Assembly (NCBI RefSeq): GCF_004799325.1
Contig: NZ_SSMD01000001.1
Span: forward strand, 310,001 to 374,000
Source of the DNA: Thalassobius vesicularis
GTDB taxonomy: Bacteria; Pseudomonadota; Alphaproteobacteria; Rhodobacterales; Rhodobacteraceae
DNA: 64,000 bases
Reading direction: 5' to 3'
The position numbers and the translations under genes were made by a program. Of this stretch, positions 10,386-28,322 are shown in pieces (the first letter of the stretch is position 1; the number at the start of each line of letters is the position of its first letter). The notes under the pieces were generated by a model. The model worked only from the letters and a program-made list of their open reading frames with translations, did not search any database and was not told where the DNA came from.

Positions 10386-12986
10386 ATGCACCTGACAACA
10401 GGCCACCAGACCGGAGCCCCGCGGTTGTCCAGACTTGCCGTACAGACGCTGCGCAACCTTGCGCCGATCCTTGTGGGGGCGGTGCTGTTCGCGATGGGTC
10501 TGTACGCGCTGCTGCACCTGCTGAAACCCGTCCATTTCTCGGATATCGTCGCCCAGGTCCGCGCCATGCCCGCGCCCGTTCTGGCCGGGGCCGGTCTGGC
10601 CACGGTTGCGGCCTATGCGGCGCTGGTCGCCTATGACTGGTTCGCACTGCGCTATATCGGCAAGACCTTGTCATGGCCGGTTGTCACCATCGGTGGCTTT
10701 CTGGGTTATGCCTTTGGCAACACGGTCGGGGTCAGCGTCATTTCGGGCGGGGCCGTACGCTACCGTATCTATTCCGCCGCCGGGCTGAACGCGTTCGAGG
10801 TGGCCGCCGTGTCCGGCTATATCGCGCTGGCGCTGGGGACGGGGCTGACGCTGATCGGGCTGGCCGCCCTTGCCATCCACCCCGGCGCGGTTGCCGCTTA
10901 TCTGCCCTATGGCCAAGGGGTCGTGCAGCTGATCGCGCTGGCGCTGGTGCTGTCCTCGGTCGGGTTGATCGCGTGGCTTTCCGTCAGCCAGCGGACGTTT
11001 CGGTTTCGCGCGTTCCAGCTGCACATGCCGCCCCCGCGCGACCTGCTGGGCCAGCTGATCGCCACGCTGGTGGATGTCGCCGCCGCGGCCTTTGCACTGT
11101 GGGTGCTGCTACCCGCTGGCAAGCCCGACTTTGCCACGTTCATCGCGGTCTACTCGGCGGCGATGATGATTGGCGTGCTTAGCCACGTGCCCGGCGGCGT
11201 CGGCGTGTTCGAGACCGTGGTGATCGGCACCCTTCCCGCCGATGTGCCGGTCAGCGACGCTGCCGCCGCACTGCTGATGTTCCGGCTGATCTACTACCTG
11301 ATCCCCTTTGCACTGGGGTTCCTGATCGTCGCGCTGAACGAGGTGCGCCTCGCCGGAGGGGCCCTGAGCCGCTATTTCGGCCGGCTGCAAGGGGCGCAAC
11401 CCGCCCTGTCCACGCTGCATGGGCTGTCGCCGGGACTGGTGGCGGCGGTGGCCTTCGGGTTCGGCGTCTACCTGCTGTTGGTCTCGATGGTGCCCGCCGT
11501 TCAGCAGGACGCAATTGCAGAGCGAGAGCTGGTCGCCACCCTGCTGCGCGAGGGCGGGACGATTGCCCTGACCGTCGCGGGCGTGTCGCTGCTGATCCTG
11601 TCGCACGGGCTGGCGCGGCGGGTGTCCTCGGCGTTTTGGCTGGCGGTGGCTGCGCTGGCGGCCGGTGCAGTGGCCGCATTGCTGAACGATGCGGACGTCA
11701 AGAATGCCACGCTGCTGTGCGTCGGCGCGCTGGCGCTGCTGCCGTTCCGCCGCGCGTTTGACCGGCCCGGGCACCTGACCAGCGACGTGTTCGAACTGCG
11801 CTGGTTCCTGGCTGTCGGCGGAACTCTGGCGACCATCGCGGCCTTCTTCTTTTTCGCACACAAAAGCAGCCCGACGTCCGATGCAATCTGGGTCGGCTTC
11901 AACGCGATTTCCGAGACCCAGCGCGCGCTGCGGGCGGGCCTGATCGCCTCGTCCGTGTTGCTGGTGTTCGGGGTTTATCTGTTCACGCGGCCCGTACGGC
12001 TGAAGCCGGCCGTGGATGCGGACGGGGACGCGCTGGCATTGGCGGCCGGGATCGTCGAGCGCAGCGAAACCCCGCTGGCCTGGCTGAGCCAGACCGGCGA
12101 CAAGCGGTTCCTGTTCTCGGATTCGGGACGCTCGTTCCTGATGTATGCGGTGCAGGGACGGTCGTGGGTCGCTTACGGCAACCCCGTCGGCGACATCCGC
12201 GAGTTTGAACCGTTGTGCTGGTCCTTTGCTGAACAGGCCGCGAAATCGGGCTGCCATCCGGTGATGTACGAGGTGCAGCCGCTGGACACCCCCCTGTGCG
12301 AAGGGCTGGGCCTGACGCTGAACCGCATCGGCGAAGAGGCGGTGATCCAGTTGGCCGGGTTCGATGCAAGCGCCCCGGCGCTGGCGGCGTTCACGGGCGA
12401 GGCGCCGGTCGAGGTTCTGCTGCCACCGCATTCCGCGGACACGCTGGCCGCGTTGCGCTCGGTCTCGGACGTGTGGCTGTCCGGGCGCGACGGGGCCGAG
12501 AAGCAGTTCTCGGTCGGGCGGTTCTCGGACGCGTACATGAACCTGTTCCCGATTGCCGTGCTGCGCGAGGCGGGGCAGATCGTGGCCTTTGCCAACCTGA
12601 TGTTCACGCAAGGCGGCCGCTATGGCGCGGTGGATCTGATCCGCTTTCTGCCGGACCAGGGCCGAGAGGTTCTGGGCAGGCTGTTCCTGGGGCTGATCAC
12701 CTATTGCAAGGCCAACGGCACGCAGGAGATCAGCCTGGGCATGGTGCCGCTGGCGGGGCTGTCCAGCCGCTCGGTCGCGCATTCGTGGGATCGCTTTGGC
12801 CGACTGATCTATCGCCACGGCGGCGCGTTCGAGGATTTCGAGGACCTGCGGACCTTCAAAAGCGCGTTCCAGCCGGACTGGCGGCCCAGATACCTAGCGC
12901 TGCCGGCCAAGGTGTCGCTGCTGACCGCGATGCGGGACGTGGCGATCCTGATCGCGGGCACCGACAGCGGCCTGTCCGGCAAGTAA
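10386..12986 (+). CDS. mprF: Lysyl-phosphatidylglycerol synthase/flippase (MprF family)
   Basis: The 866-residue protein has the full MprF layout: an N-terminal membrane half (flippase region to about residue 500, including VISGGAVRYRIY and HVPGGVGVFETV typical of the UPF0104 part), then a soluble C-terminal DUF2156 synthase domain (about 540-850). By family it transfers lysine or another amino acid from charged tRNA to phosphatidylglycerol and flips the product, lowering surface charge and giving resistance to cationic peptides or acid. No strong Shine-Dalgarno sequence precedes the ATG. It looks intact. The neighbouring decayed locus begins immediately after it. Confidence 0.92.
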   Translation: MHLTTGHQTGAPRLSRLAVQTLRNLAPILVGAVLFAMGLYALLHLLKPVHFSDIVAQVRAMPAPVLAGAGLATVAAYAALVAYDWFALRYIGKTLSWPVVTIGGFLGYAFGNTVGVSVISGGAVRYRIYSAAGLNAFEVAAVSGYIALALGTGLTLIGLAALAIHPGAVAAYLPYGQGVVQLIALALVLSSVGLIAWLSVSQRTFRFRAFQLHMPPPRDLLGQLIATLVDVAAAAFALWVLLPAGKPDFATFIAVYSAAMMIGVLSHVPGGVGVFETVVIGTLPADVPVSDAAAALLMFRLIYYLIPFALGFLIVALNEVRLAGGALSRYFGRLQGAQPALSTLHGLSPGLVAAVAFGFGVYLLLVSMVPAVQQDAIAERELVATLLREGGTIALTVAGVSLLILSHGLARRVSSAFWLAVAALAAGAVAALLNDADVKNATLLCVGALALLPFRRAFDRPGHLTSDVFELRWFLAVGGTLATIAAFFFFAHKSSPTSDAIWVGFNAISETQRALRAGLIASSVLLVFGVYLFTRPVRLKPAVDADGDALALAAGIVERSETPLAWLSQTGDKRFLFSDSGRSFLMYAVQGRSWVAYGNPVGDIREFEPLCWSFAEQAAKSGCHPVMYEVQPLDTPLCEGLGLTLNRIGEEAVIQLAGFDASAPALAAFTGEAPVEVLLPPHSADTLAALRSVSDVWLSGRDGAEKQFSVGRFSDAYMNLFPIAVLREAGQIVAFANLMFTQGGRYGAVDLIRFLPDQGREVLGRLFLGLITYCKANGTQEISLGMVPLAGLSSRSVAHSWDRFGRLIYRHGGAFEDFEDLRTFKSAFQPDWRPRYLALPAKVSLLTAMRDVAILIAGTDSGLSGK

Positions 12987-12989
12987 CGC

Positions 12990-13262
12990 TCAGTGTGAAA
13001 TCATCCATGGCCGCGCCGAGGGGAAACTTTTCGAGCCGTCGGGCCGGTGCAGCGTCTTGCTGGGTTTCTTGGATGCGCCAGACGAACAGCACGAACAGCC
13101 CGCGCCGTGTTTCCTTGTCGATTTCGGCTCGTGCGAGGCGCGTTCGTTGGTTTCGTGCGCACGGCGGACGGTGCTGCTAACGGCCGAGAGTTTCGGCGCG
13201 GTGATCAACACTCGGCGCGCGCTGGTGCCGCAATCGGGGCAGAAGTAATCGTAGTAGGGCAT
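12990..13262 (-). pseudogene. fmdB: FmdB-type zinc ribbon protein with internal deletion
   Basis: A 90-codon frame starts MPYYDYFCPDCGTSARR after a GGAAGAAG site and ends RPWMISH, both typical of FmdB-like regulators. An intact FmdB zinc ribbon has two CxxC(G) knuckles about 20-25 residues apart. Here there is only one (C8/C11), and the sequence jumps straight to the segment that normally follows the second knuckle. I infer an in-frame deletion between the two repeats. It may still be translated but cannot form the usual four-cysteine zinc site. It lies next to an fmdA fragment. Confidence 0.7.
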
Positions 13263-13282
13263 CGTCTTCTTCCGGAATGGAG

Positions 13283-13590
13283 GTCGCGCCGCGTGACAGG
13301 TCCTTGATGTCACAGTTGCCGCCATGTTCGCGCGGCGGCAAGGTGCAGGCGGCCTCGGCGGCGGCGGCCATCACGCCCATATGCGCGCTTTGGGTGGTCG
13401 GCAGCGCGGCCAGATGCGGCACGCGGTCGGGTTCAGTATCGAACAGCACCTTTTCACGGGCGTTCCACATGTCCAGCATCTTGCGGCTGGGCAGGCAGCC
13501 GATCAGGCCGGTGTGAATGAGGCCTGCGTATTTCACGCCGGGGACGTGGCGGGACTTGGTGAACATGCCGCCGCCCGAGATCAGGCCACG
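13283..13590 (-). pseudogene. fmdA: Formamidase/acetamidase fragment
   Basis: Residues such as FTKSRHVPGVKYAGLIH, TGLIGCLPS and HGGNCDIKDLSRGA match the middle of FmdA/AmdA family formamidases, enzymes of about 400 residues. Only roughly 95 codons remain. Upstream the sequence runs into urtC remains, and after LSRGA it breaks off and joins the leader of fmdB. Both the N-terminal part and the C-terminal part are missing, so it is non-functional. The remaining gene order matches the amide-utilisation loci of related bacteria, where fmdA lies beside urt transporter genes. Confidence 0.75.
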
Positions 13591-13595
13591 CAGGC

Positions 13596-13774
13596 AGGGA
13601 TGCCGGGGGTGGACTGGATTTCCGTGTTCTCAGGGGTCGAGGCCTCGAGCTTGAGGAACATCGCCATGCAATAGCCCCCCAGCACAGCACCAACCCGATC
13701 GCCACGAAGGCATAGGTCAGGTACTTGGCGGACAGGTTCAGGCGGAAGGTGTCCAGCAGCAGCGGGAACACGGC
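13596..13774 (-). pseudogene. urtC: Urea ABC permease UrtC remnant
   Basis: Two pieces of a UrtC N-terminal region remain: FRLNLSAKYLTYAFVAIGL up to CWG, then in another frame GGYCMAMFLKLEAS through STPGIP. In intact UrtC a stretch of about 15-16 residues (the GGILSLGQG region) separates these pieces, so I infer a deletion that also shifts the frame near 13676. After STPGIP the rest of the gene, and by gene order urtD and urtE, are gone. The first piece is fused in frame to the urtB remnant. Confidence 0.7.
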
Positions 13775-14122
13775 GAAGATGACGACTAGGAAGGTGTCCA
13801 CGATGCAGAGCTGACCTGCGGTCGGGCCGGTCGAGCCCATCGTCCATTCGGGGATGGTGACGCCGACCTCGCACGCGCCGAACACGGAACGGTAGATCTG
13901 TTGCAGGATCAGGCTGAGGCCCCAGGTGGCCCGCCGCGTGTCCAGCGGACGTTTATAAAGATGGCGTATGAGCGCCCATTCGACGAGCATCCCCAACGCG
14001 CCACTGGCGATTAAGGCCAATATCATCGCCACGAAGTAATAGCCCGAGAAAAGGATCAGTCCGGCAATGCCCTGCATGGCGAAGATGGCGGTCAGCTCAC
14101 CCATGGAGTAGTCGGAAAACAT
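13775..14122 (-). pseudogene. urtB: Urea ABC permease UrtB remnant, fused to urtC
   Basis: The native-looking start (MFSDYSMGELTAIFAMQ) has an AAGGAACG ribosome site. The protein then runs through GMLVEWALIRHLYKRPLDT, GLSLILQQIYRSVFG and VGVTIPEW, all characteristic of UrtB. It is only about 116 residues instead of about 300-340. Segments are missing after GLILFS and after TMGS, and the tail IVDTFLVVIF runs directly into urtC. Substitutions at strongly conserved places (DTRRATWG where DTLLATWG is usual) put two arginines into a hydrophobic segment. The chimeric frame continues to 13454 with no sensible sequence. Confidence 0.72.
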
Positions 14123-14241
14123 GGCTCGTTCCTTTGAAAGCGGTGGCGGCGCCCGCGCCGCAAGTGCTGCGGCGCGGGGTGGAAATCCCGAAGGTTGGGA
14201 AAGGGCTGGCCGGGGATGCGTAAGACCAGCCCGATCCGGCG

Positions 14242-14520
14242 TTACTGGTAGCCTTCGGGGAACGGGTTGGGTTCGACCAGATCGTCGGTTTCGAACACGA
14301 CCTCGTACTGGCCATCCGCCTTGGCCAGACCGACGCGGGTCTTCGACCACGGGTGATGGTTTTTGTGGACCTTCAACTAGCCTTCGGGGGCGGTGGTCAG
14401 TTTGATGCCGGGGCTGGCTTCCTTGATCTTGCCGATACCGGCGGCCTTCAGCTGCTTGGAGAAGGCCACGTTCGAGCCACCCACGATGATCGCACAGATC
14501 GGGGAGCAGGCGACTTCCTG
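14242..14520 (-). pseudogene. urtA: Urea ABC binding protein UrtA C-terminal remnant
   Basis: The reading CAIIVGGSNVAFSKQLKAAG, then ASPGIKLTTAPEG, KVHKNHHPWSKT and VVFETDDLVEPNPFPEGYQ matches the C-terminal third of periplasmic UrtA-type urea/amide binding proteins. An in-frame TAG at 14377-14379 interrupts it between APEG and KVHKN. The N-terminal part, including the signal peptide, is absent. The stop codon after PEGYQ is probably the original one, and the urtB start follows 120 nt later, as in an intact urt operon. Confidence 0.65.
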
Positions 14521-14539
14521 CGCTTCCTGCCCGAGCCGA

Positions 14540-15677
14540 AAACCCCCGCTCAAACACGAGCACGGCGCCACCGAAGCCTGCATCCTGTACAACTATCGCC
14601 TTGGCGCCGAGGACATGACGCATTGCCCGTTCCACGCCGGACCGATCTGTTCGCTGTGCTGCACGCTGGACAGTTCGTGCCGGGACAGCTGCAAGCCGCA
14701 TGGCCGGCTGGACGCGATGCTGGTGTCGACGATCCGGTCCACCCTGCCGCAGCGGATTGCCGATGCACTGATGTCGCGCCTGTCGATCTTTCTGATTTCC
14801 ACGGCGATTCCGGCCTCGGTCTTTGGGATGGTGCTGCTGTTCATCCGCGCCCACGAAGGGGCCGAGAATTTCGACGCGGTGCTGACGGTGATCCTCGCCT
14901 CGGTTCTGGTGGTGATCGACATCATTGCCTGGACCCTGATCCTGGCCACCGAAAACCAGAAACAGGCCCGCGACGAGGCCGACCGCCAGACCCAGCGCCT
15001 GCTGCGCGAAGTGCGCGTCACGAACGGACCGATGCGGTCAGCACGATCCGGCGCAGCTCGGAACATCTGGCGGGGTTGATCGACAACCTGCTGGAGATTT
15101 CGCGCGACCGCATCCACTTGCCAGCGTTGCTGCACCATATCGTCTCGATCTTCGAGGGGCAGGCCCGCGCAAAATGGTGATGGTGGTCGATGACGACCAA
15201 AGCCACCTGCGGCTGGTCGAAACCGTGAAGCGGCCGCTGGGCTTTCTGGTGCAGACCGTGCCGGATGCGGCGACCGCGCTGGAAATTCTACAGGACGCCG
15301 CGCCGGACATATTCCTGCTGGATATCGACATGCCCGGCAAGGATGGCTGGGCACTGGCCAGCCGCATCCGCGCCCTGCCCACCCACCGCAACACGCCGAT
15401 CCTAATGGTCTCGGGCCACGCGCTGGAGGCGCGCCACCCGGTCGAGCGTGAGGGGCTGTATGATGCGTTTATCGTCAAGCCCTACTCGGTCCATGACATG
15501 CTGCGCCGGTTGGCGGACCTGCCGAAGGTCACGCTGGTGCATCGACAAACCGACACTGAAGACGACGACCCCAAGCAGGTGCCCGAAACCGTGGTGGAAC
15601 GTCTACGCGAACTGGCCAGCATTGGCCACGCCGCCAGCCTGCGCCTGATCGAGGAGTTCAAGAACCGTGCCGCCTGA
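14540..15677 (+). pseudogene. Hybrid sensor histidine kinase, gutted
   Basis: Three blocks of one hybrid kinase survive. Block one has a Cys-rich patch (CPFHAGPICSLCC, CRDSC), then two membrane helices and a coiled linker (about 14550-15013). Block two, in another frame, has a scrap of the HisKA region (STIRRSSEHLAGLIDNLLEI to GQARAK). Block three (15174-15677) is an intact receiver with LLDIDMPG and IVKPYS. The long symporter-like N-terminal half, the phospho-histidine segment and the whole HATPase domain are missing. In relatives this kinase stands next to urt/fmd genes. The receiver could still be translated from ATG 15174 as a 167-residue protein. Confidence 0.7.
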
Positions 15678-16044
15678 ACAGTACAGATCTGCCATGCCCG
15701 CCCGTTCCATCGCGCTGGTGATTGACGCCGCGACCGAAACGCTGGGGCCGGTCTTGACCGCGCTGGAGGAAAACGGAATGACCGTGCTGATCGCGGTCCG
15801 GCCGTGGCGCGACGGGGAAAACGAGTCGGAACTGGTCGAGGAATTCGGCCTGACCCAGCGCGAAGCCGAAGTGCTGGTGTGGCTGTCGCGGGGCAAGACC
15901 AACCGGGATATCGCGGACATTCTGGAGCTGTCGGCGCGCACCGTGAACAAGCATCTGGAAACCGTGTTCCAGAAGATGGGTGCGGACGACCGGACCTCGG
16001 CCGCGGTGATGGCCGACCGTGTCTTACAGCCGCTCAGCCAGTAG
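15667..16044 (+). pseudogene. LuxR-type response regulator lacking its receiver core
   Basis: The 125-codon frame has a GTG start overlapping the kinase end. The first about 35 residues (ARSIALVIDAATETLG and ALEENGMTVLIA) are the start of a receiver domain. The sequence then jumps to a complete LuxR/GerE helix-turn-helix (GLTQREAEVLVWLSRG to NKHLETVFQKMG). The phospho-acceptor Asp, the Thr and the Lys of the receiver are all missing. I infer an in-frame internal deletion of well over 100 codons. The DNA-binding half looks intact, so a constitutively active or orphan HTH protein remains possible. Confidence 0.65.
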
Positions 16045-16053
16045 AGACAAAGA

Positions 16054-16081
16054 AACCCCGGCAACGGGACGTGCCGGGGTT
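16054..16081 (-). terminator. Terminator of the cluster B transporter operon
   Basis: The stem AACCCCGGCA / TGCCGGGGTT is followed on the minus strand by TTTCTTTG. It lies 75 bp beyond the dctM stop and also just after the LuxR remnant on the plus strand. Confidence 0.65.
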
Positions 16082-16155
16082 CCAATGTGCGCCGCAGGCA
16101 AGGAGCGGCGCACGATTCCGGGGATTGGCGTTCAAACAATCCTTGGCCGGAAAAC

Positions 16156-17445
16156 CTATTTCAGCATCATGCCGGGCAGCCAAAGCGTGATCTCGGGCAC
16201 CAGCAACAGCAGTAGCAGCACGACCAGTTCCATCAAAAAGAACGGCAGGATCCCGCGAAAAATCTTGCTGAGCGGCACCCCAGTCTGCGCCGAGGCGACG
16301 TAGACATTCAGGCCCAAAGGCGGGGTCAGCAGGCCGATCTCGACCGTCTTGGTGACGACGATGCCGAACCACACCGGATCGTAATCCAGCGCCATTGCCG
16401 TCGGAAAGGCCAGCGGCATTGCCAGCGACAGGATCGCCAACTGGTCCATGAACATGCCCATCACCAACAGGGCCACGATGATGATCGCCATGATCTGGCC
16501 GCGGGACATGTCGGTGGTTGCGACGAACTCCAGCAGGCCGTGGGTGATGCGGGTGAAGGCCAGGTAATTCGAGAAGATCGCCGAGCAGGCCACGATGGCC
16601 ACGATCATCACCGTCGCCCGGATCGCGCCAGAAACGCTGCGGCTGAACTCCAGAAAGCTGAGCGTGCGTTGCAGCAGCACCAGGATCAACGAGCCCATCA
16701 CACCCAGCGCCGCTGCCTCGGACGGCGAGGCGATACCGCCGTAAATCGCGCCGATCACCAGCACCATCAGCACCGTCAGCGGCAAGATGTGGCGGCTGGC
16801 CTTGACGGCGCGGCCCAGATCGAACGGGTCGCCCTTGGGGGCCTGATCGGTAGTATGGGCGATCACCTTGATGACGACGACCAGCCCCAGCGCGGTCAGC
16901 AGGCCGGGGATGATCCCGGCGATGAACAGCTTGCCGATCGAGGTCTCGGTCAGCACGCCATAAACCACCAGCACGATCGAGGGCGGCACCACGACGGCCA
17001 GCGTTCCGCCGACAGACACCACGGCGGCGGCCAGACGTTGGGAATAGTTGTGGTTGCGCATCTCGGGGAAGGCCGAGGCCGACATCGCCGCCGTTGACGC
17101 GGTCGAGCTGCCAACCAGCGCCGCAAGGATGACCGACGCCCCGACCGTCGCCATGGCCAGCCCGCCTTTGACATGGCCCAGCCACGCCTGGCAGGCAAAG
17201 ATTGCGCGACGGGTGACATCGCCCGAGGTCAGCAGTTCGGCCATCAGGATGAACAGCGGGATCGCCACCAGGATGAACGAGGCCGAGCTGTCGAAAAAGG
17301 TCCGCTCAAGCACCGCAAAGGCGGGGCGCGGACCCAGCTGGACGGCCAGCCCGACAAAGCCGGAAATCCCCATGGCAAAGGCGATCGGCATGCGGAAGGC
17401 CATAAGCACAGCCAAAAGAGCGAGTATTGCGAAAAACGTCATCAT
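16156..17445 (-). CDS. dctM: TRAP transporter large permease (cluster B)
   Basis: The 429-residue multi-span membrane protein belongs to the DctM family, with family motifs such as SASEAAALGVMGS-like SPSEAAALGVMG, VGSSTASTAAMSA and LLTPPLGLNVY. It forms the ion-coupled channel subunit of the TRAP system with the DctQ and DctP encoded upstream. The gene order here is dctQ-dctP-dctM, unlike cluster A (dctP-dctQ-dctM). It is the last gene of an operon that starts with an acyl-CoA synthetase. Confidence 0.93.
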   Translation of the reverse strand: MMTFFAILALLAVLMAFRMPIAFAMGISGFVGLAVQLGPRPAFAVLERTFFDSSASFILVAIPLFILMAELLTSGDVTRRAIFACQAWLGHVKGGLAMATVGASVILAALVGSSTASTAAMSASAFPEMRNHNYSQRLAAAVVSVGGTLAVVVPPSIVLVVYGVLTETSIGKLFIAGIIPGLLTALGLVVVIKVIAHTTDQAPKGDPFDLGRAVKASRHILPLTVLMVLVIGAIYGGIASPSEAAALGVMGSLILVLLQRTLSFLEFSRSVSGAIRATVMIVAIVACSAIFSNYLAFTRITHGLLEFVATTDMSRGQIMAIIIVALLVMGMFMDQLAILSLAMPLAFPTAMALDYDPVWFGIVVTKTVEIGLLTPPLGLNVYVASAQTGVPLSKIFRGILPFFLMELVVLLLLLLVPEITLWLPGMMLK

Positions 17446-26882: not shown

Positions 26883-28322
26883 ATGATCGAGAAACGTCAG
26901 TTCTATATCAACGGGGAATGGGTGGACCCCGTCGAGCCGCGCGACTACGCGGTAATTGATCCCTCCACCGAAGAACCCTGCGCAGTGATCTCGCTGGGTG
27001 GCAAGGCAGATGCCGACAAGGCAGTGGCAGCCGCCAAGGCCGCCTTCCCCGCGTGGATGGCAACCCCGGCCGAAGAGCGCATCGCGCTGGTCGAAAAGCT
27101 GCTGGAAATCTACAAGGCCCGCAGCGCCGAGATGGGTGCCGCGATCTCGATCGAGATGGGCGCGCCGATCGACATGGCCAGCACTTCGCAGGTCGGTGCC
27201 GGGACCTGGCACATCACCAACTTCATCCGCGCCGCCAAGAACTTCAAGTTCATCCGCCCGCTGGGTGATCACGCCCCCGAAGACCGGATCATCTATGAAC
27301 CGATCGGCGTGTGCGCTCTGATCACTCCGTGGAACTGGCCGATGAACCAGGTCACGCTGAAGGTGGTCGCCGCGGCCATCGCTGGCTGCACCATGGTGCT
27401 GAAACCGTCCGAAGAAAGCCCGCTGGACGCCATCCTGTTCGCAGAGATGATGCATGACGCTGGCTTCCCCAAGGGTGTGTTCAACCTGGTGAACGGCGAC
27501 GGCATGGGCGTCGGCAGCACCCTGTCCGGCCACCCGGACGTGGATATGGTCAGCTTCACCGGCTCGACCCGCGCAGGCATCGCGATCTCGCAGAACGCGG
27601 CCCTGACGCTGAAGCGTGTCCACCTGGAGCTGGGCGGCAAAGGCGCCAACATCATCTTCGCGGATGCCGACGACAAGGCCGTCAAGCGTGGCGTGCTGCA
27701 CATGATGAACAACACCGGCCAGTCGTGCAACGCACCCAGCCGGATGCTGGTTCAGCGCGACATCTACGAGCAAGCCGTTGAAACCGCAGCCGAAGTTGCG
27801 AAATCCGTCACCGTTGGCCCCGCCAGCGAGCACGGCAAGCACATCGGCCCCGTGGTGAACGAAGCGCAGTGGAACAAGATCCAGGGCCTGATCCAGAAGG
27901 GCATCGACGAAGGCGCCCGCCTGGTCGCCGGTGGCTTGGGTCGTCCGGACGGTCTGAACAAGGGCTTCTTCGTGCGTCCCACCGTGTTCGCCGACGTGAA
28001 CAACGAGATGACCATCGCACGCGAAGAAATCTTCGGCCCGGTGCTGTCGATCATCCCGTTCGAGACCGAGGAAGAAGCGGTGCAGATCGCCAATGACACG
28101 GTCTACGGCCTGACCAACTACGTGCAGACGCAGGACGGCACCAAGGCCAACCGCCTGGCGCAGCAGCTGCGCTCGGGCATGGTCGAGATGAACGGCAAGT
28201 CCCGCGGCGCGGGCGCTCCGTTCGGCGGCATGAAGCAGTCGGGCAACGGTCGCGAAGGTGGCGTTTGGGGCATCGAGGACTTCCTCGAAGTCAAATCCGT
28301 CGCCGGCTGGGCCGCCGAGTAA
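26883..28322 (+). CDS. NAD(P)-dependent aldehyde dehydrogenase
   Basis: The 479-residue protein has every ALDH landmark: PWNWPM (oxyanion Asn), KPSEESPL, FTGSTRAG for the cofactor, the general base E249 in LELGGKG, catalytic C282 in GQSCNAPSR, and EEIFGPVLS near 385. A GGAGGTCG site precedes the ATG. It oxidises an aldehyde to an acid in the cytosol; substrate range is not deducible. It is followed by a strong terminator. Divergence from a peroxiredoxin gene hints at a role in handling lipid-peroxidation or solvent aldehydes, but this is inference. Confidence 0.93.
   Translation: MIEKRQFYINGEWVDPVEPRDYAVIDPSTEEPCAVISLGGKADADKAVAAAKAAFPAWMATPAEERIALVEKLLEIYKARSAEMGAAISIEMGAPIDMASTSQVGAGTWHITNFIRAAKNFKFIRPLGDHAPEDRIIYEPIGVCALITPWNWPMNQVTLKVVAAAIAGCTMVLKPSEESPLDAILFAEMMHDAGFPKGVFNLVNGDGMGVGSTLSGHPDVDMVSFTGSTRAGIAISQNAALTLKRVHLELGGKGANIIFADADDKAVKRGVLHMMNNTGQSCNAPSRMLVQRDIYEQAVETAAEVAKSVTVGPASEHGKHIGPVVNEAQWNKIQGLIQKGIDEGARLVAGGLGRPDGLNKGFFVRPTVFADVNNEMTIAREEIFGPVLSIIPFETEEEAVQIANDTVYGLTNYVQTQDGTKANRLAQQLRSGMVEMNGKSRGAGAPFGGMKQSGNGREGGVWGIEDFLEVKSVAGWAAE

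Follow-up and report, generated by a model that had tools for sequence, protein, structure and literature searches.

Intact clusters that combine a formamidase with a urea-type transporter have been described in Bradyrhizobium, where a five-gene urt-like transporter lies next to a PF03069 formamidase and, it is argued, carries some amide that is not urea (as set out in PMC3098086). Losses bounded by short direct repeats have been described in other settings. In Haloquadratum walsbyi, deletions between direct repeats of 4-20 bp removed from 10 bp to 34 kb and are tied to many pseudogenes (according to PMC3119063), and in maize fractionation short direct repeats flank the internal deletions in 10 of 16 gaps (figures from PMC2893956). 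Among Salmonella pseudogenes, 346 of 378 are reported to carry a single inactivating mutation, and a small fraction to have lost more than 20% of their length (PMC2916853). For human deletions, serial replication slippage and FoSTeS/MMBIR-like mechanisms are named in PMC3597517.

The locus compared with these here lies in Thalassobius vesicularis. The window, meaning the whole 64,000-nucleotide stretch of DNA that was analysed, is C1:310001-374000 on a 760-kb contig of a 3.79-Mb genome in 46 contigs, listed as 100% complete and 0.09% contaminated. Window positions 12974-16025 (3.05 kb) match collinearly an 11.1-kb locus of fmdB-fmdA-urtEDCBA, a hybrid kinase and a LuxR-type regulator, and by alignment to intact relatives ~72% of that locus has been lost. 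An earlier reading made from the letters alone (the sequence-only reading) had listed remains of fmdB, fmdA, urtC, urtB, urtA, a hybrid kinase and a LuxR regulator in the expected order, in 3 kb where more than 10 kb was to be expected, and comparison with 13 relatives bears out both the order and the length. Family hits support the identities of fmdA, urtA and the regulators; the names fmdB, urtB, urtC, urtD and urtE are those which we take to apply from that reading's list, the gene order and general resemblance.

The region 12900-16150 was used as a query against 41 genomes (its own and 40 relatives) and gave 15 matches in a genome of the same genus (G005), 14 of them sharing one contig, and 14 matches in a genome of the same family (G009); the single-contig match sets of both are collinear and span 10-11 kb. 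Further fmd-urt loci were found in 394 family genomes, of which 132 had any match, mostly short and single, when the best two candidates per genome were scored. The 13 relatives compared are G005, G009 and 11 more loci, picked for multiple matches; other family genomes with multiple matches, such as G404 (on two contigs), and those with an fmdA-type match alone (G278, G361 and G153) were left out. In all 13, which were picked for having it, the locus is full length (11.15-11.49 kb, padding included), and blastn gave 13-16 collinear blocks in each, counting plus-strand matches only. In G242 (L060) the intact locus has fmdB, fmdA, urtE, urtD, urtC, urtB and urtA on one strand, with the hybrid kinase (1,116 codons) and the LuxR-type regulator (305 codons) facing them from the opposite strand. 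The remnant retains the gene order of such a locus (formamidase, transporter genes, two-component regulator), with urtD and urtE deleted, and holds no complete, workable set of its genes.

Both flanks, mprF and the TRAP operon, had been called intact, and mprF and dctM proved to be so (Table 1). The alignment starts at 12974 and overlaps the mprF end by 13 bases, possibly as overshoot. The mprF protein has no match in the eight other genus genomes searched, and the dctM matches listed in other genus genomes are all but one 28-44% identical. The exception, in G001, is an isolated C-terminal remnant of 105 residues at 81% identity (L172:10632-10946, G001:C65). The surrounding 20 kb gave no match to any further window protein that was tried, and the fragment is possibly another decay relic. 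LuxR-like hits in G001 and G006 (L173, L174) were considered as further remnants and rejected as single HTH matches, and G006 has one unrelated match to window positions 27972-28112. A crude composition filter, run over the window and 240 kb of sampled stretches, returned 10 gaps of at least 500 bases, the fmd-urt remnant among them. Of the others, five measure 514-726 bases; among the remaining four, which were inspected, three hold long open frames, and the fourth (L181) was judged by eye.

To map the deletions, the 13 loci were combined into a profile and the window was aligned to it, with long gaps charged a jump penalty; this placed L060 4083-15160 (11.08 kb) against the 3.05 kb of the remnant. 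Seventeen gaps of at least 15 columns were found: 63, 570, 18, 2699, 49, 265, 252, 150, 94, 264, 1720, 701, 162, 30, 463, 102 and 546. The 94-column gap (after 14127) was rejected as a deletion, being a diverged urtB-urtA spacer replaced by 114 other bases. Eight alignment settings were compared (penalties of 15-30, other weights, the closest relative left out, and its clade alone or left out); 14 deletions are common to all eight, and another two are likely, namely the 63-base deletion, seen in seven settings and merged with its neighbour in one, and the unstable deletion of ~102 bases, which is 102 columns in six settings and 110 and 84 in the others. The last deletion (~546) is 557 columns, and out of frame, in one setting. 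Intact controls (18 pieces of the same length from six relatives) show 0-2 gaps each, so the number of gaps in the remnant is beyond chance. Two 1-base deletions (near 14510 and 15017) also recur in all eight settings, and the long deletions outnumber them by at least seven to one; since small frame-breaking gaps also turn up in the controls (0-5 in each), these two are weak evidence of decay and could be alignment noise. The collapsed locus has 14-16 mapped deletions. The sequence-only reading had noted no transposase or integrase. The remnant consists of locus blocks throughout, apart from the filler (~26 bases), the urtB-urtA spacer and a 15-base piece near 15680, with the variable kinase linker near 15540-15690 also left unassigned by the alignment. 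Deletions had been claimed in every gene, with conserved blocks retained; this is correct for the genes named, whereas urtD and urtE are wholly gone.

Table 1. Remnant genes and flanking genes in window positions, with the deletions placed in each and the basis of assignment
Feature	Position	Strand	Deletions and remarks	Basis
mprF-like gene, left flank	10386..12986	+	Intact	Both LPG_synthase domains nearly whole (Pfam)
fmdB remnant and part of fmdB-fmdA spacer	12974..13281	-	63-base internal deletion after 13226; ~570-base deletion after 13281 takes the 3' part of fmdA	Profile alignment; Zn_ribbon_8 below cut-off
fmdA (formamidase) middle fragment	13282..13570	-	18-base in-frame deletion after 13368	Alignment and FmdA_AmdA
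Filler	13571..13596	.	26 bases at the 2.7-kb deletion; 13582-13596 weakly placed	Matches no part of the locus above background
urtC N-terminal fragments	13597..13781	-	49-base frame-shifting deletion after 13676	Profile alignment
urtB fragments	13782..14127	-	265-base deletion after 13781 (urtC-urtB); 252-base after 13835 and 150-base after 14043, both in frame	Profile alignment
urtB-urtA spacer	14128..14241	.	Diverged, of similar length in relatives; outside the deletion count	
urtA fragments	14242..14494	-	Premature TAG at 14379; 264 bases lost in frame after 14418	
Hybrid sensor kinase fragments, receiver domain retained	14495..15680	+	~701 after 14554, 162 after 15032, 30 after 15102, 463 after 15173; ~102 after 15643 less certain	Profile alignment, Pfam
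LuxR-type response regulator, receiver start joined to HTH	15667..16044	+	~546-base deletion after 15795 (at 15839 in two of eight settings)	
TRAP transporter dctM, right flank	16156..17445	-	Intact	Profile 1-413 of 413

With the 2.7-kb deletion went the rest of fmdA, both urtE and urtD in full, and the 3' portion of urtC; the 1.72-kb deletion after 14494 fuses urtA to the kinase. Pfam recognises four of the eight remnant frames scanned: fmdA (FmdA_AmdA, E 9.8e-29, profile 130-223 of 373, about a quarter of the profile), the kinase receiver domain (Response_reg, E 3e-18), the LuxR HTH (GerE, E 1.4e-19) and fmdB (Zn_ribbon_8, E 0.001, under the Pfam cut-off). Pfam returned no family for the remaining four, which cover urtC, the urtB-urtA end, urtA and the middle of the kinase; these are identified through collinear DNA homology to the intact relatives; the urtA piece is also matched by TIGR03407 (positions 304-360 of 361, with one TAG within). 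A chimeric UrtB-UrtC reading frame was observed on the minus strand at 13454-14854, taking in the urtB start (near 14125) and continuing through two in-frame deletions into urtC.

The sole FmdA match in the host genome is the window remnant. A second, full-length urtA lies at C4:218824-219915 (541.8 bits against a cut-off of 492.75), with a urease alpha gene less than 3 kb away. Because this separate urtA and the urease alpha gene are retained, the loss reads better as one of formamide or short-amide uptake and hydrolysis than as one of urea use, and of the formamide/urea utilisation proposed by the sequence-only reading we keep the formamide part and drop urea. The organism has probably lost formamide/short-amide use and retained urea use, and the intact locus would have transported an amide of this kind.

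The junctions themselves were examined for microhomology, measured as how far a breakpoint can slide without a worse fit (within 4 bits), at the 15 deletions free of filler. The null comprised 816 simulated junctions from random cuts of intact relatives, of which 720 were recovered and the 96 unrecovered dropped. Breakpoint ambiguity averages 10.5 bases at the 15 junctions against 3.4 in the null, and none of 20,000 resamples reached as high a value. By extension score, 7 of the 15 junctions (after 13226, 13676, 13781, 13835, 14494, 15102 and 15173) exceed the 99% point of the null; the other eight fall below it, some of them in kinase regions or spacers that are too variable for the ancestral ends to be read. 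As a group, the junctions carry short direct repeats where the deleted segments ended. The sequence-only reading had proposed aligning the region to intact relatives, mapping the end points and looking for shared microhomology, and all three came out as it predicted. Ku, as a part of non-homologous end joining, was found in none of nine genus genomes, with a positive control in Bacillus subtilis. Microhomology at the junctions together with the lack of a Ku hit fits slippage or annealing at short direct repeats, and deletion between such repeats is the likely mechanism.

Our main reading, to which we give a probability of roughly 0.8, is that this is a dead formamide/short-amide locus, inactivated recently compared with its divergence from relatives and removed stepwise by deletions between short direct repeats. 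The locus would first have been inactivated and then cut down piecemeal, presumably one deletion after another, each joining short direct repeats by replication slippage or single-strand annealing as the probable enzymatic routes. The same junctions could have arisen if a single episode of replication or repair, skipping forward many times by serial template switching (serial replication slippage, FoSTeS/MMBIR-like), made most of them and point mutations followed later, a course that we regard as unlikely. It would suit the preserved order and orientation of the blocks, the microhomology of the junctions as a group, the 14-16 long deletions beside two of 1 base, the end of the damage at both flanks and the unmatched filler at one junction; however, it would take over a dozen forward jumps, extraordinary within a single locus, whereas stepwise loss calls for nothing novel and would leave an identical footprint, and selection could also spare the flanks. 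The collapsed form is present in one genome only (one genome of the species was examined), so intermediate stages are unseen, and none of the eight other genus genomes carries a subset of the deletions. Stepwise loss is favoured over one complex event, as the likeliest course rather than as a proven one. The claim of many separate small deletions, not one event, holds for the number (at least 14), although two deletions are large (~1.7 and ~2.7 kb) and their separateness is likeliest yet unproven.

Several joins had been said to keep the frame, and indeed 8 of the 11 reasonably stable intragenic deletions are multiples of three (63, 18, 252, 150, 264, 162, 30 and 546), with 49, 701 and 463 breaking it. 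Against an expectation of one-third this is unusual (p 0.0088, or 0.0039 for 9 of 12 once the uncertain deletion of 102 bases is counted in), whereas against an expectation of 0.6-0.65 it is ordinary (p 0.30-0.43). Among direct repeats 15-800 bases apart within the nine genes of the 13 relatives, those of at least 6, 8 and 10 bases are in codon phase in 63%, 75% and 85% of cases (27,831, 2,862 and 347 repeats), and across 28 intact window genes the shares for these repeat sizes are 67%, 78.5% and 92%. Codon shuffling retains 63%, 73% (72.6%) and 86% in phase, and base shuffling about a third (33%); as the in-phase share persists after codon shuffling, codon composition alone can explain the frame bias. 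Repeats that are mostly in phase account for the in-frame joins and make their excess no sign that the shortened proteins work, and selection for in-frame deletions was dropped as unnecessary, given repeats in phase at 0.63-0.75 for 6-8 bases. We did not find this codon-phase account of frame keeping in the literature searched, which is weak evidence of its absence from print. Phased repeats would likewise have given neat in-frame gene miniatures if one serial forward template-switching event at microhomologies, or a few of them, had caused the collapse; we hold this to be improbable, and if true it would be a bacterial counterpart of serial replication slippage, limited to a dispensable cluster.

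Most of the coding sequence has been lost, and constraint on the amino acids that are left is relaxed relative to the intact orthologues, as in a pseudogene. One premature stop lies inside 935 retained codons. At codons with the same amino acid in all 13 relatives, the window has 35 private changes in 446, against 0-12 in 446-458 for each relative compared with the other 12, and with 12 bases dropped at every block edge it has 28 in 368 against 0-10 in 368-378. Private synonymous changes are not elevated (9 of 251 against 3-22 of 254-272 in relatives). Identity by codon position is 0.797/0.839/0.615 between the window and L060, close to the 0.831/0.871/0.620 of the intact pair L060-L061. The excess is uneven, with 1 private change in 30 in the receiver, 2 in 35 in the HTH and 1 in 38 in fmdB, so these pieces may still be under constraint. 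A shortened yet working locus, making small functional proteins from at least the receiver and HTH pieces, would agree with these few changes, with the good scores that the receiver and GerE domains still reach and with the eight in-frame deletions; we nevertheless consider it very unlikely, given that about a quarter of the fmdA profile is left, urtD and urtE are missing, urtA carries a stop and urtC is frame-shifted, and that repeats alone predict frame keeping. The short form, whose conservation in relatives would have spoken against decay, was found in none of the eight other genus genomes. Overall, the interpretation first drawn from the letters is supported.

Chimeric joins can likewise carry microhomology, and an assembly or amplification artefact, judged here indirectly, might produce similar junctions. 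We find this hardly credible for a locus that lies inside a 760-kb contig of a genome as complete and clean as listed, between intact neighbour genes, and that carries its own excess of amino-acid changes.

From the excess of changes at invariant codons, neutral divergence since inactivation would be roughly 3%, a rough hand estimate assuming ~2.3 non-synonymous sites per codon, and the locus would have been dead only briefly relative to its divergence from relatives. The window branch measures 0.22, similar to the 0.085-0.32 of intact relatives. The window locus groups with G386, G242 and G368, apart from same-genus G005, which at 83% completeness and 6% contamination is the least clean of the genus genomes; this grouping makes transfer or lineage sorting of the locus possible.

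The remnant shows in unusual detail an entire catabolic cluster in the course of removal, with 14-16 deletions mapped against 13 intact relatives. Two questions become testable with it: which deletion mechanism clears dead genes in a bacterium that is, judging from relatives, of a free-living kind, and whether deletions that keep the frame signal selection in GC-rich genomes. The present results suggest that they do not, since even without selection some two to three in every four repeat-mediated deletions would be expected to fall in frame.

Set beside the known systems, the repeat-mediated deletion process is already familiar, and its extent within one locus is unusual. The gene pairing is the same as in the formamidase-urt cluster of Bradyrhizobium, which is intact, whereas ours is a remnant (PMC3098086). 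Similar to Haloquadratum walsbyi, the deletions are bounded by short direct repeats, although that case, as described in PMC3119063, concerns an archaeon and a genome-wide comparison of two strains, and here at least 14 deletions fall in one 11-kb bacterial locus. The maize case differs in concerning plant genes following polyploidy (PMC2893956). Erosion chiefly through deletions is shared with the Salmonella pseudogenes as described in PMC2916853, by comparison with which the loss of 72% of a nine-gene locus is extreme.
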